This document shows positions 4,453 to 21,924 of a DNA stretch of 24,433 nucleotides, one piece after another. The notes beneath the pieces are model-generated. The model saw only the letters and a program-made list of their open reading frames with translations, did no database searches and was not told the origin of the DNA. The position numbers were made by a program, and so were the translations under genes. Within the stretch, counting starts at the first letter, position 1, and every line of letters begins with the position of its first letter. The DNA comes from a virus, in the IMG/VR virus record IMGVR_UViG_3300022902_000074, positions 1-24,433 of that record; one strand, written 5' to 3'.

Positions 4453-4700
4453 TATAAAAAAAGTGTTATTTTGGAGGGTGAGTTGATTAAATAGATATAT
4501 ATAGATTATCAATAATTTTAAATGAGTCTTACACGGAAGTATATTTATGTGAGTCAGTATATTAATTTTTTAAAAGTAAAAAATTTATTTTTGATTTTTT
4601 TTAAATTTTTTTTTGATTGATTGATAATCACATAGCATTCGGAAGTAGGATCTACAATCTTTCTACCTTATCTTTCTTCTACTATAAGAAAAAAAGAATA

Positions 4701-5092
4701 CGTCATTGGTGTTCCTTTAAAATATTTTTCTATAAAAATTTTTTTTATACTTAGGTATAAAAATTTTTACTTAGATGAATTCGCTATTAATAAAAAAAAT
4801 AAGGATAGCTCATTGTTCTTTAATTAAAAGAATTCGGATGCATGTTTATATTAGTGAGGTGGATTTATATTGGATGAATGATTTGCTACGCTTCGATTAC
4901 TCTCAGCTTGATTAGTGTGGATGGTTTATTTGGAAGGAAGATTGATAAAAGTATTCGCCTGGATTCGATAAAGACTGAATCCTCGACAGGCTCATTGTTG
5001 TTTAATATATAAAAAGATGAACATACTATGTTAATCATTTTATACGAAGAACTACAATATGGTGTTCGCTAAACGCTCAATGTTATTTCTTA
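4701..5092. repeat. dispersed motif CTCATTGTTnTTTAAT, four degenerate copies
   Basis: Copies: TCATTGGTGTTCCTTTAA (about 4703-4720), CTCATTGTTCTTTAATTA (about 4809-4826), CTCATTGTTGTTTAATAT (4991-5008) and CTCAATGTTATTTCTTAT (5076-5093). The second and third match at nearly every position and are both followed shortly by an A-run and G. The third copy directly follows a hairpin (4957-4991). Spacing is irregular (about 85-180 nt). Confidence 0.45.
4957..4991. repeat. hairpin before third motif copy
   Basis: GGATTC (4961-4966) pairs with GAATCC (4977-4982) across a 10-nt loop. GCCT (4957-4960) pairs with AGGC (4988-4991), leaving a 5-nt bulge (TCGAC). The stem ends exactly where the CTCATTGTT motif begins. 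Role unknown: RNA structure or protein site. Confidence 0.4.
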
Positions 5093-5104
5093 TATGCCAT
5101 CCCC

Positions 5105-5208
5105 CTCCCTCGGCCAGCCCCACCCATTCTATTCAAAAGTATATATTATTATTAAAGGTATTATTTTCTTTGTTTGTTGAGGTTACTTTCCTCTGGGCTG
5201 GCAGGGAG
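5105..5208. repeat. GC-rich long-range stem in AT-rich region
   Basis: CTCCC (5105-5109) and CCAGCCC (5114-5120) pair with GGGAG (5204-5208) and GGGCTGG (5195-5201), giving twelve GC-rich base pairs around a small internal loop and enclosing about 74 nt of A/T-rich sequence. It could be an RNA domain or a cruciform. Confidence 0.45.
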
Positions 5209-5225
5209 TAGCCGGCATACATTAT

Positions 5226-5251: not shown

Positions 5252-5318
5252 ACCAGAAGCAACGGCTCAAATGAACCAATCTATTTAAAAACAAAAGCCA
5301 GCGGAGGCGTTCGCCCAC

Positions 5319-5470
5319 TAATAAAATGTGAAGCGGTATTCCTACCATCAATTGAACCTTCCAACGCTTGCCATCCGATAACTAACTAGTTATCTGACAG
5401 AAAGCTACTCTTATTGATACCGGCTTACAGCCTAACATAATGTGCTTTATGTTATCTTCACATTTTATTA
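5319..5470. ncRNA. candidate structured RNA or cruciform (nested inverted repeats)
   Basis: A perfect 15-bp outer stem, TAATAAAATGTGAAG (5319-5333) with CTTCACATTTTATTA (5456-5470), encloses two branches. Branch one opens with CGGTAT (5334-5339) pairing with ATACCG (5417-5422), directly stacked on the outer stem, and contains the hairpin GATAACT-AACT-AGTTATC (5377-5394). Branch two is TAACATAA (5433-5440) pairing with TTATGTTA (5447-5454) around a 6-nt loop. Together this forms a three-way junction of 152 nt. The strand is undetermined because perfect pairs fold on either strand. No tRNA features (anticodon arm, T-loop, CCA) are seen. It could be a non-coding RNA, a replication-origin structure or a protein-bound cruciform. 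Confidence 0.45.
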
Positions 5471-5713
5471 ATGACCTCTCTATTACTACGCTCCTTATCC
5501 CGACCACCACCCCTCAAAAACTACGATTTTGGACATGATCACAAAAGGGCCAAAAAGGGTCAAAAAAGAGCTTTTTTAATGTTTTTTGCGAAATTCCTGC
5601 GCAAGAATATTCCGAACAGAAGTGTTCGCACGCAGTGTAGGCAAGGCCAAAGTGCGCAGCAAATTTCCTGCACCCACTGTTTACCTATCCAAACGTGACA
5701 TTGACACACTCTT

Positions 5714-5757
5714 TGACATTTTGTCACAAGGACTTACATCTTTTTGACATTTTGTCA
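5714..5757. promoter_or_regulatory. paired palindromic operator-like sites TGACATTTTGTCA
   Basis: Two identical copies of the 13-bp palindrome TGACA-TTT-TGTCA lie at 5714-5726 and 5745-5757, 31 bp apart (about three helical turns, same face). Identity extends to flanks (TT before, CA after). Two further TGACA half-sites lie just upstream (5696-5700 and 5702-5706). This is what a binding site array for a dimeric regulator looks like. The sites are 55-126 bp upstream of the rightward promoter, so either activation or repression of a further promoter is possible. Confidence 0.5.
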
Positions 5758-5811
5758 CACCTATCTAATCAACAACCATTATATATTACGTACAGTTATA
5801 CCGTTTTAACA

Positions 5812-5879: not shown

Positions 5880-6341
5880 ATGGCGACATATAGTACAGAC
5901 GCGGAGCTTGACCAGTTGTTTCATGGCATAGCTACAACGCCCGGGTATTCGCTCTCTCTAAGCGACTTTGCACTTGAACGTGCCTTAGCATACGATTGGG
6001 TGAATGACAACCTCAGAGATAGGTACACTGTTCCATTTACCGGCACTGTATCTAAGACCATTGTAATGGCTGAAGCGAATTATGCTGTTGGTATGATACT
6101 GAAATCTAATTCAACTACAGCAGGTTTCGAGTTCGCTACATACAATCCGTTCTTTCAGGAAGCTAAGAGTTTGATAAACAAGTTACGTATCATGGCTACA
6201 GGTCCGGACAGTTCGACAGAATTAGACAAGATTACTTCAACCAACGCAGGAGTCGAGCCAACAGTTGCTTTATCTAAGAAAGATCGTGACGGTAATCGAT
6301 TGAATCCGAGTAAGGCTTTCAGGAAAATGGACTTTTATTGA
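5880..6341 (+). CDS. head-tail connector / head completion-like protein
   Basis: 153 aa, ATG with a strong AGGAGG site. The N-terminus (DAELDQLFHGIATTPG) followed by an ALERALAYDWVNDNLRDRYTVPF helix resembles the gp6/DUF1320-type neck proteins, in which a helix bearing a D..L..RYT.PF motif follows a short N-terminal arm. Such proteins form the ring that joins the portal to the tail. The length fits that family. It is the first gene of the rightward virion operon and is followed after 12 nt by a lysine-rich protein and then the PKD protein, a position consistent with neck genes. The family assignment is by pattern only and moderately sure; a general virion role is likelier than the exact name. 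Confidence 0.55.
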   Translation: MATYSTDAELDQLFHGIATTPGYSLSLSDFALERALAYDWVNDNLRDRYTVPFTGTVSKTIVMAEANYAVGMILKSNSTTAGFEFATYNPFFQEAKSLINKLRIMATGPDSSTELDKITSTNAGVEPTVALSKKDRDGNRLNPSKAFRKMDFY

Positions 6342-10059: not shown

Positions 10060-10260
10060 ATGAATAGTACAATAACAACCACAATCAAACCACAGACCAA
10101 AACAAAAAAAATAACATGCTTACAATGCGACACAGTAAAACAAGGAGAAGATAACACCATTCCAGAACATGAGAATTGTTGGTGGATCTGTGATACTTGC
10201 GAGGATGAAGTTGCAGAGAAGTTAAACTGTTTTAATTTTGATACAAACTACAATTTATAA
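10060..10260 (+). CDS. 66-aa zinc-ribbon protein
   Basis: ATG 10060 with AGGGG upstream. After a Thr/Lys-rich disordered start (about 18 residues), two CxxC pairs (CLQC at about 20-23 and CDTC at about 44-47) with EHENCWWI between them form a typical zinc ribbon; a tail with one more Cys follows. It may act on transcription or nucleic acid; function unknown. Nine nt separate it from the RadC-type gene. Confidence 0.65.
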   Translation: MNSTITTTIKPQTKTKKITCLQCDTVKQGEDNTIPEHENCWWICDTCEDEVAEKLNCFNFDTNYNL

Positions 10261-10269
10261 AGGGGAATC

Positions 10270-10743
10270 ATGTACTACACAAAGACTCTGAAAACAATCT
10301 CATTGAAAATATCAGAACCAGAAGCAGAAAAGGAAACAACGTTAAATAGTAGACAATGTTTCAGGATAGCAAAGGAGATATATAAAACCCTTGATGACGA
10401 TCAGGAACACTTTACAGTATTTTTCCTAAACTCACAGAATGAGATAAACGGATTTAAAACATTATTCTCGGGTGGGCAAAGTTTCGCGACAGTAGATTTA
10501 AAGATTATATATCGAAACGCATTACAATTTGGAGCGAGCGCGATAATAGCAATTCATAACCACCCTGCCGGATCACTTAAAAGATCAGGTGAAGATGACA
10601 AGATAACACAGGAGATAATAAACGCAGGAAAGTTGCTGAATATCAAATTACTAGACCATTTAATTCTAGGGAATGGTGAATATTACAGCTATGCAGATGA
10701 GGGTTTAATTGAAACATATAACAGAAAAGGGGAATCATGCTGA
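10270..10743 (+). CDS. radC: RadC-type JAMM-domain protein
   Basis: 157 aa with ribosome site AAAGGGGAATC. It carries the JAB/MPN metalloprotease-like core of RadC: FTVFFLNSQNEINGF (48-62, with the usual Glu), TVDLKIIYRNALQFGASAIIAIHNHPAGS (74-102) with the HxHP zinc motif at 96-99, and Asp at 109-110 as third ligand, followed by LLNIKLLDHLILGNGEYYS. Cellular RadC has an extra N-terminal helix-hairpin-helix part (about 220 aa in total), which is absent here, as in many mobile-element RadC proteins. The usual 'PS' before the metal Asp is replaced by RSGE. The biochemical role of RadC is unsettled despite its name. Confidence 0.88.
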   Translation: MYYTKTLKTISLKISEPEAEKETTLNSRQCFRIAKEIYKTLDDDQEHFTVFFLNSQNEINGFKTLFSGGQSFATVDLKIIYRNALQFGASAIIAIHNHPAGSLKRSGEDDKITQEIINAGKLLNIKLLDHLILGNGEYYSYADEGLIETYNRKGESC

Positions 10744-10859
10744 CATACAATCAAATATACATCAGACTCAGGAACAGGAAGAACCATGTCAAGTGGTTTT
10801 ATAGATTCATAGTTACTGCAATTATCGTGACAGTGTTTAGATATTTAACAGGGTATTAA
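10737..10859 (+). CDS. 40-aa basic single-pass membrane peptide
   Basis: Starts at ATG 10737 inside the end of the RadC gene (7-nt overlap) using AAAAGGGGAATC, the same ribosome sequence as the RadC gene. It has a basic N-terminal half (YIRLRNRKNHVKWFYR) followed by one hydrophobic helix (FIVTAIIVTVF). Function unknown. Confidence 0.5.
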   Translation: MLTYNQIYIRLRNRKNHVKWFYRFIVTAIIVTVFRYLTGY

Positions 10860-10872
10860 ATAAGGAGACACG

Positions 10873-11082
10873 ATGTTAATAGAAACCAAAGTAACAACAC
10901 TCCACCAAGTAGCGATTGACAAAAACTACAATCAAATGTACGCTGACGATATTACGAAATCATCTTATAGTTATTTAGATGAATATTACAAGAAGTATAA
11001 TATCATCGCGAGGACAAAAGAAAGAAGGAAAGAGAATAATAAAACACATAGACTGAATCTAAAAAGGAAAGGAATAATATGA
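10873..11082 (+). CDS. 69-aa basic protein, unknown
   Basis: ATG 10873 with AAGGAGACACG upstream. It is tyrosine-rich in the middle (YNQMYADDITKSSYSYLDEYYKKY) with a strongly basic tail (KERRKENNKTHRLNLKRKG), suggesting nucleic acid or ribosome contact. Its stop overlaps the next start as ATGA. Confidence 0.6.
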   Translation: MLIETKVTTLHQVAIDKNYNQMYADDITKSSYSYLDEYYKKYNIIARTKERRKENNKTHRLNLKRKGII

Positions 11083-11252
11083 TAACATTTAAAAGCCCAA
11101 CTAAAAAAGCCATACGAAAACTAGCAATACAGAAATCAATCTCAATAGAAGAAGTTAAAAACTCACCGCCATTGATAGATGAAGCCCTGAGAAGATACAA
11201 CACAGGTATAAACTTCCTAACATTCATTGACGGAAAGAATAAGCGGAAATAA
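11079..11252 (+). CDS. 57-aa basic helical protein, unknown
   Basis: ATG 11079 with AAAGGAATAAT upstream, overlapping the previous gene by 4 nt. The sequence (SPTKKAIRKLAIQKSISIEEVKNSPPLIDEALRRYN) is rich in helices and could be a small helix-turn-helix-like or RHH-like domain, but no firm match is visible. A short GC hairpin (CCCC-TACC-GGGG, 11259-11270) follows. Confidence 0.55.
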   Translation: MITFKSPTKKAIRKLAIQKSISIEEVKNSPPLIDEALRRYNTGINFLTFIDGKNKRK

Positions 11253-11258
11253 AATTTA

Positions 11259-11270
11259 CCCCTACCGGGG
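11259..11270 (+). repeat. short GC hairpin CCCC-TACC-GGGG
   Basis: Four-bp GC stem 6 nt after the 57-aa gene, in an AT-rich context, without a T-run. Third of the inter-gene hairpins of this operon. Confidence 0.35.
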
Positions 11271-11365
11271 CATAACAAAACATCATAGGAATGCTTCGCA
11301 TAATTTAACCGCTGATTTTGACACTTGGCCTACAAGGAACACTTACCCGATTAGAAAGGCGATTT

Positions 11366-11512
11366 ATGAAAATAATAATAAATAATCTTAGATTAATAAT
11401 TGGTGATTGCTTAATCAATATAGCAATGAACCTGTATCCAGAAGGAAATGAACGTAAAAGTCTTTGTTACTTTTTAAATAAACATTATAGATTTATGACA
11501 GAGGGAAAATGA
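11366..11512 (+). CDS. 48-aa protein, unknown
   Basis: I start it at ATG 11366, after TTAGAAAGGCGATTT, a variant of the repeated leader; the open frame extends upstream but has no good site. It has a hydrophobic beta-like start (MKIIINNLRLIIGDCLINIAM) and a basic, aromatic end (FLNKHYRFMTEGK). The start resembles small phage proteins of the pattern 'R..lG..L...a..l.P', but I cannot name the family. The stop overlaps the next ATG. Confidence 0.55.
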   Translation: MKIIINNLRLIIGDCLINIAMNLYPEGNERKSLCYFLNKHYRFMTEGK

Positions 11513-11715
11513 AAGTAGATATAATTCTAAACATTGAACGGATTGCATATAATAAGAAGTTTAAGATTGTAGGAAAAGTACATCAAGTTGACATGAAGAA
11601 CGATGAAAAGATAAAGACAGTTTTGTTCCTGGCATACAAGAAACTGGAAAAAGATATAGAATCTACTATTGAAACTTATAGAAAGGCAGGTGGATTGCAT
11701 TATGATAGAAATTAA
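11509..11715 (+). CDS. 68-aa protein, unknown
   Basis: ATG 11509 overlaps the previous stop (ATGA) and follows AGAGGGAAA. It has a lysine-rich alpha/beta appearance (VDIILNIERIAYNKKFKIVGKV, then IKTVLFLAYKKLEKDIES). The 3' end contains the third exact copy of TTATAGAAAGGCAG (11676-11689), which serves the next gene; the two genes overlap by 14 nt. Confidence 0.55.
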   Translation: MKVDIILNIERIAYNKKFKIVGKVHQVDMKNDEKIKTVLFLAYKKLEKDIESTIETYRKAGGLHYDRN

Positions 11716-12154
11716 GTTTGAAGCAAAAGGCGAAACAATTGAAGAACTGGCACAACATTTAAGTATGGTGAAATCATTAATAGAGCAAAGAAGTTATGAG
11801 GGAGTAATAACATTCCATGAAGATTATTGCAATAAGGGAAATACTAAGACGAGTAGTTATGAATATTCAATCAAGAACGTCAAGGAAGATGATAGCTTTA
11901 TAACCGGAGTAGTAATTAGATTTGCAGGTGAAACACACAGCATGTTAAAGGGATGTCATAAAGATTTAGCAAAAGCGCTGATAATTCAGGGCATCCCAAT
12001 TCGATCAAGTGAAATGATAGAAGGATTTATATTGAAGAACGGTACATTTTTAAACCGGATAGAAGCCGCGAAACACGCAATCAAGATCAAACAGGTAAAA
12101 CAAGACGAGACATTAATGCTTTCAAGTAAACTATACAGCCAGGACCTTTGGTAG
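11702..12154 (+). CDS. conserved phage protein with C-terminal LYSQDLW motif
   Basis: 150 aa from ATG 11702, 12 nt after the repeated AAAGGCAG leader. The C-terminal half has the sequence pattern EGFILKNGTFLNRIEAAKHA.......KLYSQDLW, which I recognise from many phage proteins ('GFlts.grFvdR.EA..iA...gQ....LfSEDLW'). In those the preceding part contains R..GE.H, here VIRFAGETHSML (about residues 76-87). The function of this family is unknown to me. The first 65 residues are specific to this protein and read as a charged helix plus strands. It is the last gene of the rightward operon, converging with the helicase gene at a 2-nt gap. Confidence 0.7.
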   Translation: MIEIKFEAKGETIEELAQHLSMVKSLIEQRSYEGVITFHEDYCNKGNTKTSSYEYSIKNVKEDDSFITGVVIRFAGETHSMLKGCHKDLAKALIIQGIPIRSSEMIEGFILKNGTFLNRIEAAKHAIKIKQVKQDETLMLSSKLYSQDLW

Positions 12155-12156
12155 AA

Positions 12157-13773
12157 TCAATAATCAAAATCATCTTCGTCAGGCTGAGTGATCCCGGCAT
12201 TCACTAATTCAGGACACTTGGCCTGATCTTCTTCCTCTCCATAATCAAAGTCTTCTACAATATCATCGTTAAACCATTTCGGCAAACACTTACGGACACG
12301 CTCAAAACAACTATCCAATATATACATAACACCCCAATCAGTATGAGATCTTACATGCCTACCGGACATTTGCAACACAGCTTGCGCCGTTTCGGAATTA
12401 TACCACATCTTGCCTTTATTACCTGATCCATAGCAACGCTTCGATATAGCCTTGTCACCGAGATTCGGGAACGGCATCTTTACACAGATACCAAATCGCG
12501 CTTTATCATCGTTTAACGACAATCCTCGCACACAAGAAGGGGAAACAAATACAAGGGGCTCTGTGGAATTATAGAAGATATGCAATTGTTTCTGTTTATC
12601 TTTCGACTCATGTGTAATCAATCGATTGCCGCCGATCTCCATAATCAGATCCCGGAGCGCATAGGACTGACAATGTATAATCCCTTTTTCAGTGGCATGG
12701 CGATCAAGGACAATTCCTACATAATCGATCATAGTCATATACTTTTCTTTATTCTTGAAACTCATATCCATAACAGGTTCGTATATCACTTTACGGTTTT
12801 CCGGTAAAAAGCTGGACCCGACTTCAATATAATCACAATCTGCAGGATCAATCATCAAGGTATTACATATAGTTGCTTTCGGAGGAAGTGAAGCAGAACA
12901 GAGAATAAACCGGTCAGCATGAGAAAACAGGTACTTTTGTATCAATTCCTTAGTAATCCATACAGGTTTGAATTCAGAATAAGTATTATGCCGATTATAA
13001 ATCCAATCATCCTCAACCAAAAGTATGAACAGTTTCAACTTTTTGATTAATTTATCAGCTTTTACGAATTCAGGATCTAAGGAATTCTTGCAATTTTCTG
13101 AATTGTAGGATTTTTCCAGCTTGATTATAGAATCACCGGCCCAATCAATCCATGATTCGACTACGGTTAGTTTCGGGTATCCGAGATCATATTTCCTTAT
13201 AAGCGAATCTGATACTTGCAAGGACACAAACGATATGAAATTAAGGTCCAGGGTATCAGCCTCGTCAATTATGATTAAATCCTGCCCTTTTAACTGCCCG
13301 GCATAATTCATTTCAAATAACAGGTAGAATGTATTTAGGATACGGAAGTCTGCATTTAGGAGTTCAGCCTTTTTATCATAATAATTACACTGGATCTCTT
13401 TGGCTTTATATTCCGCACATTGCCCGACACAGGTATCGGCGTTTAAATGGGGGAATAGGTTACAGGTGTAATTTCCTCTACCCTTGAGTACCACAGCTTC
13501 AGGGAAATCATTTAATAACTGGTCCTGTAATTGTTTATCAGAACAAACGTAATTGATTTTATTTGATAGAGTATATGCAGACATCGCACAGATTAAAGAT
13601 TTGCCCAAACCAGTTGGCGCCGATAACATAATAAATGACTTCTTTGATTCTGTTATTAAATCAGTAATCGGTTTCTGTGTTTTATTGTACCGATTGAGCG
13701 ATGATGGATTATTGAAATTACGGAAGGGTATTTCATTTGTGTTCAGGTTGACAATTTTAAATTCTTTTTGCAA
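12157..13773 (-). CDS. DinG/XPD-type superfamily 2 DNA helicase with Fe-S cluster
   Basis: 538 aa. It unwinds DNA 5'-3' by analogy with DinG and XPD. Motifs: Walker A SAPTGLGKS (51-59), four cysteines in the Fe-S position (104, 115, 119, 129), DEAD box IIIDEADTL (167-175), motif III-like CSASLP (292-297), motif V SPSCVRGLSL (411-420) and motif VI LQMSGRHVRS (467-476). The Fe-S cysteines lie between motifs I and II as in the family. The start is TTG 13773, preceded by TAGGAG at 8-9 nt; no ATG fits. It is shorter than cellular DinG (about 700 aa), mainly by lacking the large arch insertion. It is the last gene of the replication-recombination operon and is preceded by a repeat-rich 215-nt spacer. 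Confidence 0.85.
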   Translation of the reverse strand: MQKEFKIVNLNTNEIPFRNFNNPSSLNRYNKTQKPITDLITESKKSFIMLSAPTGLGKSLICAMSAYTLSNKINYVCSDKQLQDQLLNDFPEAVVLKGRGNYTCNLFPHLNADTCVGQCAEYKAKEIQCNYYDKKAELLNADFRILNTFYLLFEMNYAGQLKGQDLIIIDEADTLDLNFISFVSLQVSDSLIRKYDLGYPKLTVVESWIDWAGDSIIKLEKSYNSENCKNSLDPEFVKADKLIKKLKLFILLVEDDWIYNRHNTYSEFKPVWITKELIQKYLFSHADRFILCSASLPPKATICNTLMIDPADCDYIEVGSSFLPENRKVIYEPVMDMSFKNKEKYMTMIDYVGIVLDRHATEKGIIHCQSYALRDLIMEIGGNRLITHESKDKQKQLHIFYNSTEPLVFVSPSCVRGLSLNDDKARFGICVKMPFPNLGDKAISKRCYGSGNKGKMWYNSETAQAVLQMSGRHVRSHTDWGVMYILDSCFERVRKCLPKWFNDDIVEDFDYGEEEDQAKCPELVNAGITQPDEDDFDY

Positions 13774-13889
13774 TTTGAATTTCTCCTATTTTCAAAAGTG
13801 AGTGATTTCGAGTAAATGAATTTTTCAGTTTTTTAAAAACGCTCTACAAACCTGCCTATTAATACATAAAGGATAGCTCTTGCGATTTT

Positions 13890-13985
13890 GGAGCTACCGA
13901 GCTACAGAGCTACAAGCTACAGAGCTACAGAAATAAAGGATTGTTTGTAGCTCGAAAAGCAATGGCGCCGGGTCTGGAGCTACAG
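13890..13985. repeat. GAGCTACA repeat block
   Basis: Five near-tandem units (GAGCTACC 13891-13898, GAGCTACA 13899-13906, GAGCTACA 13907-13914, AGCTACA 13915-13921, GAGCTACA 13922-13929), then one inverted unit TGTAGCTC (13946-13953) and one more direct unit GAGCTACA (13977-13984). The inverted unit can pair with the last tandem unit to form an 8-bp stem. The block lies between the methyltransferase stop and the helicase start, so on the transcript it is a 5' leader of the helicase gene. Confidence 0.6.
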
Positions 13986-13988
13986 GTG

Positions 13989-14417
13989 CTAATGCTCATA
14001 GACTACAATCATCGAATCATGCTTGCCCTTCTTTTTAGTGACATATTTGCCATTTGAATTAAATCCTTCAAAAGCAACACGACCTTTTAAGAACCGTATT
14101 TCGGCATAAGGATATATTAATTTATGAAAGATAATAGTGGAAGTAGCGACAGGCAACAAGAGAACACAGGTCTTTCCAGACTGCCATTCATCCCATGCTT
14201 TTTGTATAAACCTTGGCTTATCAATCTTATTATAAGGTGGATTGATAAAGTTAGAAGTACCCCATTCTATTTCAAGGCCATTAAAATCTGCATTCAAAGG
14301 ACATGGATCAAAGTTAAAATGAAACTCCCGATCAAGTTCGTCATACAAATATGAAGGAGTCTTCCAATTATCGTGAGTTGGTTGGTTGTTTCTGTCAGTG
14401 ATAGTTTTAGTATTCAT
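13989..14417 (-). CDS. phage Dam-type DNA N6-adenine methyltransferase
   Basis: 142 aa. The pattern DNWKTPSYLYDELDREFHFNFDPCP (start at residue 16; key parts DNWKTP and DPCP at 37-40), followed by FINPPYN (58-63, the N/DPPY catalytic motif of amino-methyltransferases) and VLLLPVATST, is that of the phage Dam family (DNA N-6-adenine-methyltransferase). It would transfer a methyl group from S-adenosylmethionine to adenine, probably protecting phage DNA from restriction. The start at ATG 14417 has GAGG about 11 nt upstream and overlaps the previous stop as ATGA; an in-frame TTG at 14438 is less likely. Recognition sequence cannot be inferred. Confidence 0.85.
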   Translation of the reverse strand: MNTKTITDRNNQPTHDNWKTPSYLYDELDREFHFNFDPCPLNADFNGLEIEWGTSNFINPPYNKIDKPRFIQKAWDEWQSGKTCVLLLPVATSTIIFHKLIYPYAEIRFLKGRVAFEGFNSNGKYVTKKKGKHDSMIVVYEH

Positions 14418-15316
14418 GTAGTAGATTGCCTCGTACAAGCCTGAATTTCAAGATCATGTATCATCTGTTTAAAGAAATATTCATAATTACTCAGCTTCTT
14501 TTGAATAGCCCATTTAGATAATATGTACAACCCTGCAACAAAATACCCTCTATATAACTGCCCTGGCAATTTACCAGATCCATAATATTTACTATATTCA
14601 TACGACAATATTGTAAACCTGCGACTTATACGGATTGTAATTGATGGATTTTGCGAGTCTACCTGCGAGTTTTTCACCTTTGCACTCAAAGCATACATCT
14701 TATCAGTCAATCCATCTTTAACAAAGGACCGGCACATCTTCAATAACTCAGGACAAACCAACCATTTCTTTGGTTTATGATAATCCGGTATCTGTTTGGA
14801 CCAGACAGGATGCAGTTTATTCCACAGGAGAACGCCGTACTTGTCGTTACGAGGTCTTCCGCATACGATACCATCAACAACGGAAATGGTGCCTGTGTTG
14901 TGAAAATCAAGCAGTTCTAGGGTTACGTTGAATCTCTTATCCATAGAAAGGGATCTTTGACCACTATACAAATCTATAGTTGGATCAATCAAATCTGTGT
15001 TTATATTCTTCTGCCTACATAATGAGATAATCCCTATACTAATAACACCGCGGATAAAATCAGCCTCAGACATCTTCATCGCTTGCATACGGAACGCGGA
15101 CATCAAAGAGTATGGTATAATACCTATTCGCGCCTGAAGCTTCACAGGCCGGAACCTGTCTGCAAGGGATAATGTAGATAAATCATAGAAGGATTCAGGT
15201 TGAATCTTGTCTTCTAGCTTCAAATATTGTGTTTTGCTGGTTTGGAATACAATTTCATCATCAATCATACTGCCATCTGTTGCGCCAATTTCTTCATCGT
15301 CACGAATTTTCGCCAT
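14414..15316 (-). CDS. 300-aa protein in recombination operon, unknown
   Basis: I use ATG 15316 because AAGGAG lies 5 nt before it; the adjacent ATG at 15319 is only 2 nt from that site. The N-terminus is acidic (KIRDDEEIGATDGSMIDDE), and the body has many basic and aromatic residues (LADRFRPVKLQARIGIIPYSLM, KPKKWLVCPELLKMC, ISRRFTILSYEYSKYYGSG). No catalytic motif or zinc site is evident. Location between the ERCC4-type nuclease and the methyltransferase, with ATGA overlap to the latter, suggests a DNA-related role such as replication initiation or primosome loading; this is inference. Confidence 0.6.
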   Translation of the reverse strand: MAKIRDDEEIGATDGSMIDDEIVFQTSKTQYLKLEDKIQPESFYDLSTLSLADRFRPVKLQARIGIIPYSLMSAFRMQAMKMSEADFIRGVISIGIISLCRQKNINTDLIDPTIDLYSGQRSLSMDKRFNVTLELLDFHNTGTISVVDGIVCGRPRNDKYGVLLWNKLHPVWSKQIPDYHKPKKWLVCPELLKMCRSFVKDGLTDKMYALSAKVKNSQVDSQNPSITIRISRRFTILSYEYSKYYGSGKLPGQLYRGYFVAGLYILSKWAIQKKLSNYEYFFKQMIHDLEIQACTRQSTT

Positions 15317-15636
15317 CATATCTCCTTATTTAATTTACGAAAGCCTTTCTTGCTTATTTCTACAGTGATCATAACACCATTATGTATTACATAGGTAAAG
15401 TTCGGATCTCGGAAGTATAAAGAATGCCCATGCCTTTTAATACGGATCTTCTCACGAGAGTTATAGTTCTTCACACGAGAGGCCAAAGGGAATAATGCTA
15501 TTATCTTACCTTCAGCTTCAGTTGAGGTCAAAACAGTACCAAATAGTTTTTCATATCTATCCCGGAAAGAAAAGACAGCATGGCGCTTAATAATAATCTC
15601 AATCTTTTTTCCCTTGCTGTTAAGATAATATATCAT
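15316..15636 (-). CDS. 106-aa basic protein, unknown
   Basis: Starts at ATG 15636 inside the end of the nuclease gene (17-nt overlap). The pattern IKRHAVFSFRDRYEKLFG near the start, then REKIRIKRHGHSLYFRDPNFTYVIHNGVMITVEI, resembles small proteins of the 'KH...RF.eRy' type, with a helix followed by a beta sheet ending in 'ivTv'. Some such proteins are RNase-like toxins, others are phage proteins without known role; I see no decisive catalytic signature. It is probably expressed by coupling with the nuclease gene. Confidence 0.55.
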   Translation of the reverse strand: MIYYLNSKGKKIEIIIKRHAVFSFRDRYEKLFGTVLTSTEAEGKIIALFPLASRVKNYNSREKIRIKRHGHSLYFRDPNFTYVIHNGVMITVEISKKGFRKLNKEI

Positions 15637-16150
15637 TTTTGTTATTTTCTAAGTAATTCTTATAAAAGACCAATAACCAGTTGGCAATTTTAATCGCACA
15701 GGACCGGCGGTTTCCATAATATACATGCAAGCCTCTTTTTATCTCAAATGAAATGATTGTTGAATAGACAGAGTTCTTGTGTATTTCAGAGAATGAGGTT
15801 TCAGGTGATAGTAATTCAATTTCTTCGCATTCAATTATAAGACCTTTGAATAAATGAGAGTCCAGGCGGTCAAGCATCCGGTAGAACCTTGCTCGTGCAT
15901 GGCCGGTTATTGTACCATAGAAATCAGCTTGAGACTTACGCTCAATAGATACTAAATGCTCCATACCGTTAATTGAGTAATCACCAGCATTGATAGTCTT
16001 CACAATTACCGGGATCTTCCCAAATTTATAAGGCTTCTGCTCACGAGTATCAACGGAAATTATAAAGTCTTTAGGTACTGACGGTATGTATGAAACGTGT
16101 GTAGGGTTTAATTTAATCGGTGGAGCGCAGAATTCATCAGTATTTTTCAT
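15620..16150 (-). CDS. ERCC4/XPF-family nuclease
   Basis: 176 aa from ATG 16150; the open frame continues to 16195 but that extension overlaps a hairpin. The XPF-type nuclease core is clear: ISVDTREQKPYKF (31-43), NAGDYSI (54-60), and the hallmark ERKSQAD (70-76) of GD-x(n)-ERK-x3-D, followed by FYRMLDRL and LIIECEE strands and helices. Enzymes of this type cut branched DNA or 3' flaps near single-/double-strand junctions. There is no helix-hairpin-helix or helicase domain, so it is a minimal nuclease that probably dimerises or works with the helicase or SMC partner in the same operon. Confidence 0.85.
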   Translation of the reverse strand: MKNTDEFCAPPIKLNPTHVSYIPSVPKDFIISVDTREQKPYKFGKIPVIVKTINAGDYSINGMEHLVSIERKSQADFYGTITGHARARFYRMLDRLDSHLFKGLIIECEEIELLSPETSFSEIHKNSVYSTIISFEIKRGLHVYYGNRRSCAIKIANWLLVFYKNYLENNKNDILS

Positions 16151-16160
16151 GTATATAGAA

Positions 16161-16192
16161 ATGGCCCATAGCCGGTTAAAGCTACAGGCCAT
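16161..16192 (-). repeat. hairpin before ERCC4-type gene, possible attenuator
   Basis: ATGGCC (16161-16166) pairs with GGCCAT (16187-16192), and TAGC (16169-16172) with GCTA (16181-16184), around an 8-nt loop. Read on the minus strand it is followed by TTTCTATATA and then ATG 16150, so it may act as a weak terminator or attenuator, or block the start site, between the 53-aa gene and the nuclease. Confidence 0.4.
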
Positions 16193-16224
16193 CAAATTAA
16201 TTATTAACGTAATAGGTTAATGAT

Positions 16225-16386
16225 TTATTCTTCTGAGAAGCGAACCTCAAGTTCTTTAACGATTTCGTCTTCTCTTTCAGTACAATCCTTAATAATGCCC
16301 TTTGCAAGTTTTATTTCATCTTGCTGTTTTTGGACCATTGCCCGGTTGGTAACAAGTTCCTTTGCTAAATCAAGTTCTACAGACAT
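16225..16386 (-). CDS. 53-aa coiled-coil protein
   Basis: ATG 16386 with GGAGAGATAA upstream. The whole sequence (VELDLAKELVTNRAMVQKQQ, then GIIKDCTEREDEIVKELEVRF) is one amphipathic charged helix. It lies between the SSB-like gene and the nuclease gene, so it could be a small adaptor or dimerisation partner. Family unknown. Confidence 0.6.
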   Translation of the reverse strand: MSVELDLAKELVTNRAMVQKQQDEIKLAKGIIKDCTEREDEIVKELEVRFSEE

Positions 16387-16436
16387 TTATCTCTCCGTAA
16401 ATGTTAGATAATATAGAATAAGTTAGAGATTAATGA

Positions 16437-17036
16437 TCAGCCAAAGTCATCGGAATCATCTTCAGCGGCCGCGGCTGGTTTACTTTCCTTTGCTGGTTTC
16501 TCAGCGGTTGCCTTACCCTTCTTTGCAGAAGCAATCTTACTGATATTGGCATTCGGGAAACCTTCTTTAGTCTCACCAGTTACCTTATCCACATACGGCT
16601 TTGCCTCAGAATGAGAAATTGAACAAAGTATTGTACAACCTTCAATCTCTTTGCGTAGTTGATTGTGAAATTTAGGATCTGCCAGGACCTTTACCTTAAC
16701 ACCACCCTGAGAAGATTGAATCGGTGGTTTGTTCTTACTGATACGCACCTTGTCAATCTTATCAAATACACCTGAATCTCTACCGATTCCAACAATCTTA
16801 GACAAACCGGATTGCGTTGTGGTCTTACAGAAGATGTTTGCCTTTGCAGATGGATCATCTACATAGGTTAAAGCAAACATAAGGCAATCTTCATCTTCAC
16901 CACACATCTTAATCTCTCCGGTAAACTCCATTTCCACGCCTGTGCCCTTTGCTATGTTACCTTCAGGTGGCATACTGAATCCACCCATATCCTCGGTACC
17001 ACTAATTTCCATACTATCATCAATGCTTTCACTCAT
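16437..17036 (-). CDS. SSB-like protein with acidic C-terminal tail
   Basis: 199 aa, ATG 17036 with AAGGAGGGTAGC. It has an acidic, Met-rich start, a beta-rich core of about 120 residues (VEMEFTGEIKMCGEDEDCLMFALTYV, then CTILCSISHSEAKPYVDKVTGETKEGFPNANISKI), then a Lys/Ala-rich linker and the acidic end AAAAEDDSDDFG. The layout of an OB-like core, flexible linker and acidic tip ending in a hydrophobic or Gly residue is that of single-stranded DNA-binding proteins; the core resembles phage DUF669-type proteins. It sits next to a Sak4-like ATPase, a frequent pairing in phage recombination modules. I am fairly sure of the role, less of the family. Confidence 0.65.
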   Translation of the reverse strand: MSESIDDSMEISGTEDMGGFSMPPEGNIAKGTGVEMEFTGEIKMCGEDEDCLMFALTYVDDPSAKANIFCKTTTQSGLSKIVGIGRDSGVFDKIDKVRISKNKPPIQSSQGGVKVKVLADPKFHNQLRKEIEGCTILCSISHSEAKPYVDKVTGETKEGFPNANISKIASAKKGKATAEKPAKESKPAAAAEDDSDDFG

Positions 17037-17149
17037 AAAGCTACCCTCCTTAAAACAAATTATTAAACTAGAATAAATACCGGCTTACTCAGTTCGTCAA
17101 TAAACATAACGCCTTTCGCTTACGTTCACGTATGAAACCGGCACACTAC

Positions 17150-17908
17150 CTACGCGCAAAACCATGCAAATCTTTTACTTAAATCAAATGGTGTAGTCAA
17201 TTTCTTAGGTTGAACACCACGCCACTTAACTAAATACCCCTGCTGATCATCAAAACTCAATTTTGGTGGATATTGAACAGTCCCATGTTCATCAAGATTA
17301 GGGATTGTAAAACCAATGTAATCAAAATATCCCTTTAATGCTTTGTTATAGTCTTTGTAATTGAAACATGGACCAGCTTCAAGTTCACGATTCCACTTAG
17401 GGTTTTCCTGTAACTGCGCAGTCATAATGACCATGACACCATATTGCGATAAAGTCTTCAGGAGATCCGTTAAACGACTCATTTGACTATTAGCTGTGTT
17501 TACCTCAGTCCAATCACTTTGAGACTGTGCGGACAGCTTACCAGCATCGACACCAGTACGGCCATCATTACGATCATCTTCAACACGGATGGCGAGCTTG
17601 ACATTCATCCAGAAAGTACCGGAATCAAATACAACGGTCTTATGTGGGAATTTTCCTGCAATTGCTTCAGCGATCATCTTGTTAAGTGAATCCATAAGAT
17701 CTTCATGTGACTCAGGCTGGACAATCTCAATATCAATCTTCTCTTTAAATGCTTCACAGACGTCTACACTTTTCCACGCATCACCTTCTGCAGAAATATA
17801 GAGTATTGATCCAGGTGCGGTCCGGACAATCGAGGTTGTCTTGCCTGAATTGGTATCTCCGTAGACTAATAAAAATGGCGCGTTATGTTCTCTTTTAATA
17901 GTTTTCAT
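17150..17908 (-). CDS. Sak4-like / AAA_24 phage recombination ATPase
   Basis: 252 aa. Walker A GDTNSGKTT (17-25), SILYISAEGDAW strand (34-45), Walker B KTVVFDSG (90-97), and a sensor-like strand GVMVIMTAQ, all in the order of RecA-fold ATPases that load single-strand annealing or strand-exchange proteins in phages. The SSB-like gene follows after 113 nt, the SMC-like gene precedes it, consistent with a recombination role. The gene has no clear Shine-Dalgarno sequence before ATG 17908. A RecA-type recombinase of minimal size is an alternative name for the same function. Confidence 0.75.
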   Translation of the reverse strand: MKTIKREHNAPFLLVYGDTNSGKTTSIVRTAPGSILYISAEGDAWKSVDVCEAFKEKIDIEIVQPESHEDLMDSLNKMIAEAIAGKFPHKTVVFDSGTFWMNVKLAIRVEDDRNDGRTGVDAGKLSAQSQSDWTEVNTANSQMSRLTDLLKTLSQYGVMVIMTAQLQENPKWNRELEAGPCFNYKDYNKALKGYFDYIGFTIPNLDEHGTVQYPPKLSFDDQQGYLVKWRGVQPKKLTTPFDLSKRFAWFCA

Positions 17909-17929
17909 ATTTACCCCAAAAGGTTAGAA

Positions 17930-19159
17930 TTATTCTACAATTTTACATTGGCGTAATAATACAGACTTATCACGAGTTTTCTTATCGCCTACAGTAGCCG
18001 TTATTATCTGGAATCCACGCTTTGTCAAGCCCTTGATTATCTTACGTTGATTTTCCTCGTCTAATACTTCGAAGTCATCAATGAACCGGACCTTTAGATC
18101 AGGGTTGAGCCCGGATGATATGTTCGCAATCGCCATTTCCAACTCACCCTTTGAAAAATATGGTGATTTTATAGGCTTTTCGTCTAAAAGGAGAGAGCCG
18201 GTATCATCTACAGATAATCCTTTCATGCCGAATGTAGAGGTTTTGATGTATTCAAGGCGCTCCTTATACTTTTTGTCCTGAGTTTCAATATTGGAATCAA
18301 GGTCATCATGAAACTTTTTCAATTCATTGACCTTTAGCAAATTAGAATCATAAGCTACTGCAAGTTCGTTTGTTTCTTCTGCATTTTCTATCTGTTCATC
18401 GAGTTCATCCGTATCTTTTAGCTCACAAGAATCTACCATAGTAGATAATTCATCCTCATGGTCTTTTAAAATATTTGATAAACTTTGCATTTCAGCCTTA
18501 ACGACATCAATTTGATTTCGTTTCTGTGCATGTGCAGTTGCAATTGCATTTTGCGAATTATTGAATGAAACAATTTCATCACGCTTTTCAATCAAATCAG
18601 ACACAGATACCTTATCAACCTTTTCTAATTCAGGCAGATCACCGATGGACTTAATCTGTTTTCTTAATAACTGAGCCTCTGATTTAATATCCGCAATCGA
18701 TTCATCATGTCCAGTAGTATCAATACCAAGAGCGAGGGCCTGTTCTTTGCCGGATAATGAAGTGAAGTGTGAGGCTGACAGAAATGTTACGTTTAGAAGG
18801 TTCTCAACAGTTTGCTTATCAAAAGGAGCATCGTCACCGGATGATTCAATTGAGATCTGATTTACATCTTTGGTGATATGGCGTTTAAGTATTATATCTT
18901 TCTCTGTAGCGTTATCATGCAAAGTTATCTCAATATCAAGAGACTTCTTACCAGGAGAGATAAACCTATACCTCTCACCAATCAACGCATCTTTACTTTT
19001 CTCAGCAATACCTTTAAATCCAGCCCATATAGCATTGAGTCCCACTGTTGTTTTACCAGAGCCATTGATACCAACTAAATGGGTAATGTCATCATTGAAT
19101 ACAATTTCAAAATCTTCAAATTGTGCAAAGTTTTTCAATTTCAACTGTCTGATTTTCAT
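17930..19159 (-). CDS. SMC/Rad50-like ATPase
   Basis: 409 aa with AGGAGAAAAG before ATG 19159. Walker A GINGSGKTT (30-38) follows the usual SMC start (IRQLKLKNFAQFEDFEIVF). A helical segment of about 160-310 is a short coiled coil without a CxxC zinc hook. The ABC signature is replaced by YFSKGELEMAIANIS (334-348), and Walker B is VRFIDDFEVLDEENQRKI (357-374), with DD in place of the common DE. An IITATVG strand near 385-391 is the last motif. Such small phage SMC proteins act with a nuclease at DNA ends or in recombination. The promoter lies directly upstream, so it starts the second half of the operon. Confidence 0.8.
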   Translation of the reverse strand: MKIRQLKLKNFAQFEDFEIVFNDDITHLVGINGSGKTTVGLNAIWAGFKGIAEKSKDALIGERYRFISPGKKSLDIEITLHDNATEKDIILKRHITKDVNQISIESSGDDAPFDKQTVENLLNVTFLSASHFTSLSGKEQALALGIDTTGHDESIADIKSEAQLLRKQIKSIGDLPELEKVDKVSVSDLIEKRDEIVSFNNSQNAIATAHAQKRNQIDVVKAEMQSLSNILKDHEDELSTMVDSCELKDTDELDEQIENAEETNELAVAYDSNLLKVNELKKFHDDLDSNIETQDKKYKERLEYIKTSTFGMKGLSVDDTGSLLLDEKPIKSPYFSKGELEMAIANISSGLNPDLKVRFIDDFEVLDEENQRKIIKGLTKRGFQIITATVGDKKTRDKSVLLRQCKIVE

Positions 19160-19362
19160 CTTTTCTCCTAATACAGGTTTAAATTATAATGTTATGTTCG
19201 CTTCGCTCTCACTGAGTTTTTCAGGGGCAACAGGCAGACACTCGTTCCGCTTCGCTACACTCCGTTATTGCGCTCCGCGCTGGAGTCTTTAGGTGTTAAA
19301 TAGGACACGGCTTGCCCCTTGATTTGGTTGCACTCCTGCAGAGCCAAGTTAAGGACCGTGTC
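19160..19362. other. 203-nt regulatory gap with CTTCGCT repeats
   Basis: Non-coding stretch between the 39-aa gene and the SMC gene. It contains two related copies of CTTCGCT-n-CACT (19201-19216 and 19250-19264), a GCGC-GGA-GCGC hairpin (near 19270-19281), the left arm and loop of the long hairpin at 19296-19370, and the SMC promoter. Confidence 0.5.
19183..19212 (-). promoter_or_regulatory. probable promoter of SMC-Sak4-SSB gene group
   Basis: On the minus strand TATAAT (19188-19183) is a perfect -10 box; GTGAGA (19212-19207) is a weak -35 box at 18-nt spacing. It gives a short leader of roughly 15-20 nt containing AGGAG before ATG 19159. Confidence 0.5.
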
Positions 19363-19370
19363 CTATTTAA
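19296..19370. repeat. long hairpin with perfect 15-bp stem
   Basis: TTAAATAGGACACGG (19296-19310) pairs perfectly with CCGTGTCCTATTTAA (19356-19370). Inside, CCTT pairs with AAGG, TTGG with CCAA and TGCA with TGCA around a CTCC tetraloop, forming one long imperfect hairpin of 75 nt. The right arm overlaps the last codons and stop of the 39-aa gene. No T-run follows on either strand, so it is not a standard terminator; it may be an RNA processing site, small RNA or protein-bound structure. Confidence 0.55.
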
Positions 19371-19482
19371 AATAACAATTATGAACATAAGAACAAACAT
19401 TCATAAAAAGGATTCCGCACAAAAGAGCCTTAATATGTAATAATTGCAATCCGAGTTCAATAATCTGATTTTCAAAAGTCAT
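19363..19482 (-). CDS. 39-aa small hydrophobic protein
   Basis: ATG 19482 overlaps the TGA of the nuclease gene as ATGA and is preceded by AGGGAGAAAAA. The peptide (FENQIIELGLQLLHIKALLCGILFMNVCSY) is mostly hydrophobic with three cysteines. It could be a membrane peptide or helical adaptor. Its stop lies in the stem of the long hairpin (19296-19370). Confidence 0.5.
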   Translation of the reverse strand: MTFENQIIELGLQLLHIKALLCGILFMNVCSYVHNCYFK

Positions 19483-20432
19483 TTTTTCTCCCTATAACCA
19501 TATACATCTTCACTGATCGCACCGTTATTCTTACATATACTCAAATAATTACATTCAAACGGATGCAAACACCCTGTACCGTTCTGAATCCATAGATCTC
19601 TCTCAATACACCCTTTGATATTATCGGCAATCATCCGGTAATACCTCACCATTTCATCAACATCGATCTCAGCCCTGCCGAATTTCGCGCCAAAGTTTCG
19701 TTTCTCAGGATTATACCCTGGAAAATAGAATTTCGCACGAGCCAGCATATCACGATGACACCTATTTGAATAATCAGGATAAGATTCGTTCTTGAATTTC
19801 CCTGTACGTTTCAAATCAGGTACACGAATAGCCCAAACAGTACCAGTTTTATACTTATCATTAGACATGAAGTAAGTTGCAAGTTTGTATTTGATATAAA
19901 ACAGGTTTATGTAATAAGCAGGGTCACGACCAGTTTTCAATTCAATAAATCCAGAATCATTCTTAGCGTGAAGATCCAAAAACCCTTGTATTTGAGGCTG
20001 ACCATCATTATTGAGTACAAATTTATACTGGCCGACATATTTTTCCTTATACTTATCAACACCGATTAGATCCCGGAACGCTTTCATGATCGCAATGGCC
20101 TTTGCTTGCCACATATAATCAATATCAGAGTTTATATCCAAATAATCTTCGTTCTTAGCACCTGTGAGTAGATATTCAGTAATGTAACTATCCACAGCAC
20201 TACCTATTTTTATAGGATCGGAAGTCTCTTTCTTCTGTATGCCACATATCTGAGCATAATAATACATCTTCGGGCATCGGATGAAGTTAATGATACCTGA
20301 ATGCGATAACGTAGGCTCATTCCGTTCAATGTATTCAACACACCTGAAGATAGTTTTCTTTGAACAGAATCCGGACTTAATGTAGAAGTCACAGGATTTT
20401 TTCTTTTTGTTTTCTTTATATTCGCAGGTCAT
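19479..20432 (-). CDS. Cas4/AddB-like Fe-S PD-(D/E)XK nuclease
   Basis: 317 aa. Nuclease motif: GFLDLHAKNDSGFIELKTG with D153, E164 and K166 as the D-(D/E)xK triad. Fe-S ligands of the Cas4/AddB type are visible as C53 (in IRCPKMYYYA) and C288, C294 and C300 (in CLHPFECNYLSIC). The usual His of motif I is Asp here (IGSAVDSYI, 77-84). Unusually, four further cysteines (3, 14, 23, 31; ending GFC...FRC) precede the nuclease, forming a possible second metal site. Such enzymes resect DNA ends 5'-3' or 3'-5' to give single strands for annealing. It starts 3 nt after the coiled-coil gene; the weak ribosome site suggests coupling. Confidence 0.82.
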   Translation of the reverse strand: MTCEYKENKKKKSCDFYIKSGFCSKKTIFRCVEYIERNEPTLSHSGIINFIRCPKMYYYAQICGIQKKETSDPIKIGSAVDSYITEYLLTGAKNEDYLDINSDIDYMWQAKAIAIMKAFRDLIGVDKYKEKYVGQYKFVLNNDGQPQIQGFLDLHAKNDSGFIELKTGRDPAYYINLFYIKYKLATYFMSNDKYKTGTVWAIRVPDLKRTGKFKNESYPDYSNRCHRDMLARAKFYFPGYNPEKRNFGAKFGRAEIDVDEMVRYYRMIADNIKGCIERDLWIQNGTGCLHPFECNYLSICKNNGAISEDVYGYREKK

Positions 20433-20435
20433 AGT

Positions 20436-20588
20436 TTAGTCTTTGCTTTGTAGTTCAACCTTGCCGGATAAAATATCCTTACGGAGTTCACATAGAAGCT
20501 CAAGAGTATACAATAAATACTTTTCTTCAGTTTCAAGAGCCCTCAATCTATCTTCAATACTTTTAATGTTTTCGTTTAATTCATCCAT
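20436..20588 (-). CDS. 50-aa coiled-coil protein
   Basis: ATG 20588. The ribosome site is unclear, but the gene fits exactly between its neighbours (5 nt and 3 nt gaps). The sequence is one long charged helix (IKSIEDRLRALETEEKYLLY, then LLCELRKDILSGKVEL). Family unknown; possibly a partner of the nuclease encoded next. Confidence 0.55.
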   Translation of the reverse strand: MDELNENIKSIEDRLRALETEEKYLLYTLELLCELRKDILSGKVELQSKD

Positions 20589-20593
20589 AATAT

Positions 20594-20779
20594 TTAGTAT
20601 TCAAAAACTCCGTCATCCTTACCATCATTCCCATAAGTAAATTTAACACACTCAATCATATCCTTCATACTCATATCATTAAAGTAAGCCAGCAATTCAG
20701 ATTTATTCATACCTTTAAGATATTGATCATAAGCGTGTATCCTGAATTCATTTACCTGTTCGGTATCTGTCATAGGCAT
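20594..20779 (-). CDS. 61-aa acidic helical protein, unknown
   Basis: ATG 20779 (MPMTDTEQ) with AAGGATAAATAAT upstream; ATG 20773 is an alternative. The sequence is helical and methionine-rich (FRIHAYDQYLKGMNKSELLAYF, then MKDMIECVKFTYG) with an acidic end. It follows the RHH gene by 1 nt. No family recognised. Confidence 0.6.
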   Translation of the reverse strand: MPMTDTEQVNEFRIHAYDQYLKGMNKSELLAYFNDMSMKDMIECVKFTYGNDGKDDGVFEY

Positions 20780-20780
20780 A

Positions 20781-20936
20781 TTATTTATCCTTACAAAAGA
20801 ACAATACGATTAAAGAATCAATAAATGCAGACAAACTCATGCCTTTTTTATTAGCATGATCCCGGGCCTTATTATGAACAGAGGGCCTCATTGCAACATT
20901 AAACCTTTCCTTCTTTTCAACCTTAAATTTACTCAT
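20781..20936 (-). CDS. ribbon-helix-helix regulator
   Basis: 51 aa. A basic lead (KFKVEKKE) is followed by the RHH pattern: strand RFNVAMRP (11-18), helix SVHNKARDHANKKG (19-32), turn and second helix MSLSAFIDSLIVLF (33-46). RHH proteins bind DNA as dimers through the strand pair. It is the first gene after its own promoter, which carries two direct repeats one helical turn apart, so autorepression is likely. It controls the operon with the Fe-S nuclease. No Shine-Dalgarno sequence is visible before ATG 20936. Confidence 0.72.
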   Translation of the reverse strand: MSKFKVEKKERFNVAMRPSVHNKARDHANKKGMSLSAFIDSLIVLFFCKDK

Positions 20937-20975
20937 AGTTTTAATTAATTATTAGTGAATTAAAATAACGAGAGT

Positions 20976-21005
20976 GTTATATCACATACACAACATATAC
21001 ACAAC
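20976..21005 (-). promoter_or_regulatory. promoter with tandem RHH operator
   Basis: On the minus strand TTGTGT (21004-20999) and TATAAC (20981-20976) are 17 nt apart. Two direct repeats GTTGTGTAT (21005-20997 and 20994-20986) lie 11 bp apart, overlapping the -35 box and spacer. This is the geometry expected for cooperative RHH dimers. The leader to ATG 20936 is about 30 nt of pure A/T. Confidence 0.55.
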
Positions 21006-21083
21006 TTTTATTTTTGAAACAATTGGATTATTTTCGTGAAATGAGACAGGGAGAAGGGGGAGGGTACAAGATGTATGACAAAT

Positions 21084-21380
21084 TTACTGACCGTGCTTAT
21101 GTACAGGCGGTATTTTATCGTGATATTTATACCAGAATATCAGGCCACCAGTTAAAACAGAGAAGAAGAAAAGTATAATCGCTCTAAATATAGTCTTCCA
21201 AAAGGTATCACGTATAGCTTCAACAAACTTCCGGGCATTAACTAAAAAATCTATATCAACATGATCTAACCGCTGTAACTTTTGATGGTCATCATAATGC
21301 TGTTGCCTTTCAACATAAAAAGGCTTGATCTCAGCTTCAAAGGTTTCCTTAATTGCTTCTTTTATTAACTCTTTATTCAT
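21084..21380 (-). CDS. single-pass membrane protein, lysis-cassette type
   Basis: 98 aa. The N-terminal 60 residues are helical and charged (KEAIKETFEAEIKPFYVERQQHYDDHQKLQRL), followed by one strong hydrophobic helix (AIILFFFSVLTGGLIFWYKY, about 67-86) and a His-rich tail. The pattern 'E.I...PFYVE...HY.dH' is familiar from phage membrane proteins located near lysis genes; it is a holin or antiholin/spanin-associated candidate. It lies 2 nt after the lipoprotein gene. No endolysin is visible in the window. Confidence 0.6.
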   Translation of the reverse strand: MNKELIKEAIKETFEAEIKPFYVERQQHYDDHQKLQRLDHVDIDFLVNARKFVEAIRDTFWKTIFRAIILFFFSVLTGGLIFWYKYHDKIPPVHKHGQ

Positions 21381-21382
21381 TA

Positions 21383-21646
21383 TTAATGAGCAATCAATTC
21401 CATACCAGTAGCACCGGCAGAAACTTTCGCAATATCAGTTAATATTTTAGCCATTACACCTGAACTACCAACCTGTTTACCTATTTTCATTTTAAGAACA
21501 CCGGATTTATCTTTTTCAACCACTAACCCATCGATTGATTGCTTACCTAATCGGGAATAAGTGAATTCATCTTCCTTCCAGGTGATACGCGCACAACCAG
21601 CAGAGCAAAACAGTAAACATATGATCAATATTAATAATTTTATCAT
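21383..21646 (-). CDS. small lipoprotein, possible outer spanin-like subunit
   Basis: 87 aa. A signal peptide (LLILIICLLFCSAGC) ends in the lipobox SAGC, so Cys18 would be lipid-modified after cleavage by signal peptidase II. The mature part (ARITWKEDEFTYSRLGKQ, then VGSSGVMAKILTDIAKVSAG) is basic with a C-terminal helix. Next to membrane proteins this could be an outer-membrane spanin component, but it lacks the proline-rich character of Rz1. ATG 21646 overlaps the previous stop as ATGA. Confidence 0.65.
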   Translation of the reverse strand: MIKLLILIICLLFCSAGCARITWKEDEFTYSRLGKQSIDGLVVEKDKSGVLKMKIGKQVGSSGVMAKILTDIAKVSAGATGMELIAH

Positions 21647-21891: not shown

Positions 21892-21924
21892 TTCTTCTCC
21901 ATTAAGGCCAATTCGGATCATTAA

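Follow-up and report, generated by a model that had tools for sequence, protein, structure and literature searches.

A covarying four-way-junction element, most likely a short non-coding RNA, in the control region of a probable Marinimicrobia phage and two relatives

The window, by which the whole 24,433-nucleotide stretch analysed here is meant, is a 24.4-kb virus record (IMGVR_UViG_3300022902_000074) and represents a fragment of a tailed phage that includes a terminase gene. The portal protein encoded on a contig overlapping the window is homologous to portals of Mu-like phages. Marinimicrobia are an abundant, uncultured marine phylum. Where the two were compared (window 10090-24433), the IMG/VR contig IMGVR_UViG_2537562243_000002 shows 99.98-99.99% identity to the window, and PMC5688066 lists IMG taxon 2537562243 with the single-cell genomes of Marinimicrobia sampled in Saanich Inlet and the NE subarctic Pacific. 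Because this near-identical contig belongs to a Marinimicrobia single-cell genome, the host is very probably a member of that phylum, with the usual caveat of single-cell contamination; the first viruses of the phylum were reported in PMC4533152. The window, a further contig (L005) and the single-cell contig overlap end to end (an observation that covers L005 and L045), which suggests a possible circular map.

Two related phages, L007 (the same contig as L011) and L008, encode proteins that, where compared, are 66-76% identical to those of the window. The features of the window and their strands are as follows.

924-2453, minus: terminase large subunit gene, phrog_2 type
4555-4630, plus: A/T tract ending TTGATAATC, the counterpart of the A/T tract and AATGATAATCC that open the L008 and L007 box arrays
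4808-5090, plus: GCTCATTGTTNTTTAA repeats at 4808, 4990 and about 5075 (spacing about 2 x 91 and 85), weak
5093-5219, strand unassigned: second large stem with a C-rich arm, TATGCCATCCCCCTCCC..., whose motif GCCATCCCCC is shared with L008
5298-5321, minus: weak terminator-like hairpin with a T-run, located immediately beyond the 3' end of the putative minus-strand RNA
5319-5470, minus as the better-supported RNA strand: whole structured element, a four-way junction (folding, covariation, covariance model, shuffles)
5319-5333, minus: 3' arm of closing stem P1, partner of 5456-5470, 15 of 15 pairs formed and two-sided compensated changes at 5 positions in relatives
5335-5421, minus: long arm bearing hairpin C, with base GGTAT/ATACC (5335-5339 with 5417-5421), from the hand alignment by helix
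5366-5405, minus: hairpin C, GCTT..CTGTC.GATAACT/AGTTATC.GATGG..AAGC, with G-U pairs on the minus strand only
5422-5432, minus: hairpin B, 4 bp, GGCT/AGCC, two-sided changes in 3 of 4 pairs
5433-5454, minus: hairpin A, TAACATAA/TTATGTTA, loop of 6, ACATAA/TTATGT invariant
5456-5470, minus: 5' arm of P1, perfect complement of 5319-5333
5535-5563, minus: TTGACC-17-GATCAT, a weak promoter-like match that lies upstream of where the putative minus-strand RNA would start
5880-6341, plus: gene for a small conserved protein that lies upstream of the tail/PKD genes and served as a marker; no family match, adaptor-like as judged by position

A sequence-only reading had described 5319-5470 as a non-coding, nested three-way junction, and all four stems that it listed were present at the correct coordinates, namely the 15-bp P1, a 6-bp stem (CGGTAT/ATACCG), a 7-bp stem (GATAACT/AGTTATC) and the 8-bp stem of hairpin A. 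The junction is four-way because the conserved 4-bp hairpin B, which had been overlooked, adds a branch. The 7-bp stem likewise exists, not as a separate hairpin but as the tip of the longer hairpin C. P1 is perfect over 15 bp and, when extended, covers 18 nt at 94%. No convincing ORF covers any part of the element, in agreement with the proposed non-coding location. The minimum free energy of 5319-5470 was -40.5 kcal/mol on the plus strand and -48.1 kcal/mol on the minus strand, with z-scores of -6.6 and -5.8, respectively. None of 200 shuffles folded as stably, and a perfect stem of at least 15 bp at the P1 spacing arose in none of 1000 dinucleotide shuffles of the control region, so that the fold, argued earlier to be unlikely by chance, lies well outside chance expectation.

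Relatives were collected with the marker protein, the terminase, the portal and the capsid as bait, which yielded a handful of close relatives and many distant ones. Homologs of the element were found in two of them, at L008:5108-5251 (z about -11) and L007:1089-1262 (z -6.4 to -8.2). The stem of the long arm is far longer in these phages, at 17 bp in L008 and about 14-16 bp in L007. A covariance model built from all three members gave E values of 6e-28 to 1e-21, and a model built from the window and L007 only, run over 0.8 Mb, retrieved L008 with an E value of 4.5e-10, the best unrelated match after it having one of about 1. When 16 whole records and 1.1 Mb of related loci were searched with the covariance model, no member beyond these three came to light. 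Viral contigs were also scanned twice with a DNA pattern for hairpin C, which gave true matches in L008 and L007 only; further matches in L033, L034, L036 and L037 fold differently and were rejected as false positives. Two other candidates were also discarded, namely the long non-coding region of L012, whose inverted repeat was not significant (z about -1), and a strong structure in L014, which the covariance model did not match. Portal and capsid alignment scans of genome contigs revealed no close prophage.

Pairing was retained across the three members. In an alignment of 42 pairs (A8), 98.2% of cells were paired, compared with 33-47% when the partners were slid by 1-3 columns. Two-sided changes occurred in 11 pairs of this alignment, compared with at most 2 after sliding and a mean of 4.5 after shuffling, and none of 500 shuffles reached 11. 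An alignment made by hand, helix by helix, which adds the base of the long arm and omits the outermost P1 pairs present only in the window, showed variation at 17 of 42 pairs, 14 of them two-sided with pairing retained. Selection therefore maintains the pairing. For a comparison of three independent members this is strong evidence, although so small a number restricts formal testing and the structure was drawn from the same sequences; a base-paired structure under selection is very nearly certain. The earlier reading had staked its fold on compensatory changes in related phages, and the arms are indeed conserved through such changes in L007 and L008. Since matched mutations are found in two distantly related phages, the element is real.

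The standard pairs that depart from Watson-Crick geometry bear on the strand. There are six of them, every one a G-U pair when the minus strand is read; A-C pairs, the sign of G-U pairing in a plus-strand RNA, do not occur (p=0.03). This wobble bias, which comprises six pairs only, modestly favours a minus-strand RNA, and the element is likely to act as RNA rather than as DNA. Some pairs of hairpin C are lost in the window and L007 if the plus strand is folded instead. The plus strands of the three elements also scored much lower with the covariance models, which adds little because the models were built on the minus strand. Folding z-scores did not discriminate between the strands. The terminator-like hairpin at 5298-5321 is confined to the window and is absent at the corresponding place in L007 and L008; promoter matches overall were at chance level, with no promoter conserved upstream of the element.

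In all three phages, the first features of the non-coding region around the element are an A/T tract and a box resembling AATGRTAATCC. In L007 and L008, the region continues to the left of the element with about a dozen directly repeated boxes at roughly 70-96-bp spacing, the arrays starting directly after a tract such as TTTTTTTAATTTTTTTTT. The boxes of L007 (GAATGGTAATCC) are about 70-81 bp apart and those of L008 (AATGATAATCC/TAATGAAAATCC) mostly 91-96 bp apart. Beyond the first box, the repeats of the window are weaker and differ from those of L007 and L008 in sequence and number; those at 4808-5090 may, weakly, represent a degenerate box array. The terminase, helicase and adaptor-like genes have been moved or flipped among the three phages, and the orientation of the element relative to the YspA gene is identical in all of them. 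In the window and L008, the element sits between divergent operons; in L007, it is flanked on both sides by plus-strand genes. Helicase, Sak4-like, ERCC4 and exonuclease genes were found among the phage genes, but no replication initiator was recognised. A 301-aa protein (14414-15319) and an Arc-like protein (20781-20936) of the window, or their L008 counterparts, are candidates that may bind the box array or hairpin C. The more distant relative L014 has a repeat array of its own, the final copy of which falls within another strong structure (14937-15203); at this place GC skew rises abruptly from -0.13 to +0.53. This was the only clear jump, GC skew being confounded by gene strand in the window and irregular in L011. 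By analogy with known origins, an A/T tract, a series of repeated boxes and a folded element may together be read as the layout of a replication control region. As a separate observation, the motif GCCATCCCCC..CCCCACCC of the second large stem (window 5093-5219) recurs at L008:5350, on the opposite side of the junction element.

Searches of Rfam 15 at the gathering cut-off gave no family for the window or its relatives, with packaging, plasmid-control and phage RNAs included; sub-threshold matches at E<=10 were to unrelated families and were set aside. Comparison with phages and plasmids by blastn produced short chance matches or none. With ARAGORN, neither tRNA nor tmRNA genes were detected in the window, L007, L008 or L018; L011 gave a single doubtful tRNA-like prediction, which lies about 5 kb away from the element.

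Several known systems nonetheless resemble the locus in part. ColE1-type RNA I/RNA II and other plasmid replication-control RNAs are also structured RNAs located beside an origin and encoded in the origin region. The element differs from them in lacking an Rfam match and a visible antisense partner, and box arrays are, to our knowledge, not a ColE1 feature. Iteron-type theta origins (such as those of P1, lambda and SPP1) share the non-coding arrangement of an A/T tract followed by protein-binding-like boxes seen in L007 and L008. Their boxes are, however, spaced by about 20 bp rather than about 70-96 bp, the array of the window is degenerate (a first box and weak repeats), and no initiator was recognised. 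We know of no covarying four-way junction in origins of this type. Single-strand origins (sso) of rolling-circle plasmids are likewise highly folded, orientation-specific non-coding DNA of 150-250 nt, but no rolling-circle initiator was found and the phage is a tailed dsDNA phage.

Taken as a whole, the element is a previously undescribed structured element of phages that is kept by selection on pairing, and it is most likely a short non-coding RNA. A minus-strand non-coding RNA of the replication control region that acts on origin firing or copy control is the preferred reading, with a probability of roughly 40%. The chief alternative is that the element works as DNA within that origin, as a hairpin, a cruciform or a single-strand initiation site, and is recognised by a phage initiator that would bind the box array as well. 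This is possible but rather unlikely. The origin-like surroundings and the very long A/T-rich stems, such as that of 17 bp in L008, would suit DNA, as would the array repeat lying inside a structured arm in L014. In L007 and L008, moreover, hairpin C is capped by a stem of TGATAAT/ATTATCA, a sequence that is also the core of some boxes. This match is just 7 nt, however, and most L007 boxes carry TGGTAAT; the confinement of wobble pairs to one strand also argues against DNA.

A packaging RNA, a leader and a mobile element are all less likely than either of these two readings. A packaging element, whether a phi29-like packaging RNA or a pac/cos structure recognised by terminase, would fit the compact multi-branch fold in a non-coding region and a terminase gene lying 3-5 kb or less away in the window and L008. 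The phi29-type RNA is also phage-encoded, about 120-175 nt long and closed by paired ends around a multi-way junction. In L007, though, the terminase is more than 8 kb away, no packaging RNA in Rfam matched, no complementary loop pair was noticed by eye in the element, and a phi29-type packaging ATPase and connector are at odds with the phage type, the phrog_2 terminase and the Mu-like portal homology. No finding points specifically to the packaging site suggested earlier, and the idea is improbable. Scarcely better is the prospect of a cis-acting leader (antiterminator, attenuator or riboswitch) of an adjacent operon. The position between divergent operons in two of the phages would allow it, but a minus-strand transcript in L007 would have no operon to lead because both flanking genes are on the plus strand, and a plus-strand leader would contain a hairpin C short of pairs in the window and L007. 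A MITE-like inverted-repeat element or recombination site, finally, is very improbable despite the 15-bp perfect terminal inverted repeats with TA at both ends. The element is present in single copy in the record, plasmids gave no match, and it otherwise occurs only in the control regions of the two relatives, with compensatory changes. No transposase or integrase was present among the genes tested, and the recombination site envisaged earlier lacks any integrase, attachment-site or mobile-element signature.

Under the minus-strand RNA reading, an RNA of about 150-175 nt would be transcribed from the minus strand, with P1 closing a four-way junction of hairpin A, hairpin B and the arm that carries hairpin C. 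It would be encoded such that transcription heads toward the box array. The RNA, or the transcript as it folds during synthesis, might then act in cis on DNA replication by priming or activating the origin; alternatively, it might act in trans on phage DNA replication as a copy control. A role in phage replication is suggested by analogy with the origins considered above. Within the limits of sequence evidence, the lack of an Rfam match, the compensatory changes and the origin-like region support the earlier proposal that this is an undescribed phage RNA or a structure of a replication origin.

The element is compact and its shape is strongly conserved. Should it control replication, it would exemplify a type of phage origin in which a junction RNA is combined with phased boxes at wide spacing. 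Known structured RNAs of phages are few, and we are aware of none from Marinimicrobia phages. A more ambitious and doubtful version of the RNA reading would be a new class of phage RNA, in which transcription toward an origin array of phased boxes yields a four-way-junction RNA that starts or controls replication in a Marinimicrobia phage family. Hairpin C would then mimic the core of the boxes, and RNA and array might compete for one initiator protein.

Several other sequences in these phages were observed. Exact copies of parS (TGTTYCACGTGRAACA), the bacterial chromosome-partition site, are present in three close relatives (L007:1598-1613, L012:13242-13257 and L014:5299-5314), two of the three within the long non-coding control region; the window contains none within 3 mismatches. 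Phages bearing parS may be held and segregated by a host or phage ParB. At L014:14396-15040, five repeat copies with the core ACTTAAAGG, several of them in the loops of different long inverted repeats, adjoin an array of CGCGCTTACGCGC palindromes. Paired short repeats lie upstream of rightward genes at window 5709-5759, L007:1416-1489 and L008:5784-5821 (TTTGACATTTTGTCACA, TGTGTCAATTTGATACAG and GGAAAGATTCCCTATA) and look like repressor operator sites. A stem at window 19290-19385 (TTAAATAGGACACGG / CCGTGTCCTATTTAA; z about -5) is located between minus-strand genes, and further strong hairpins, one of them terminator-like (AAAACCCAGAAAAC..GTTTTCTGGGTTTTTT), occupy an intergenic gap at L013:12430-12740 (L008:8430-8740).
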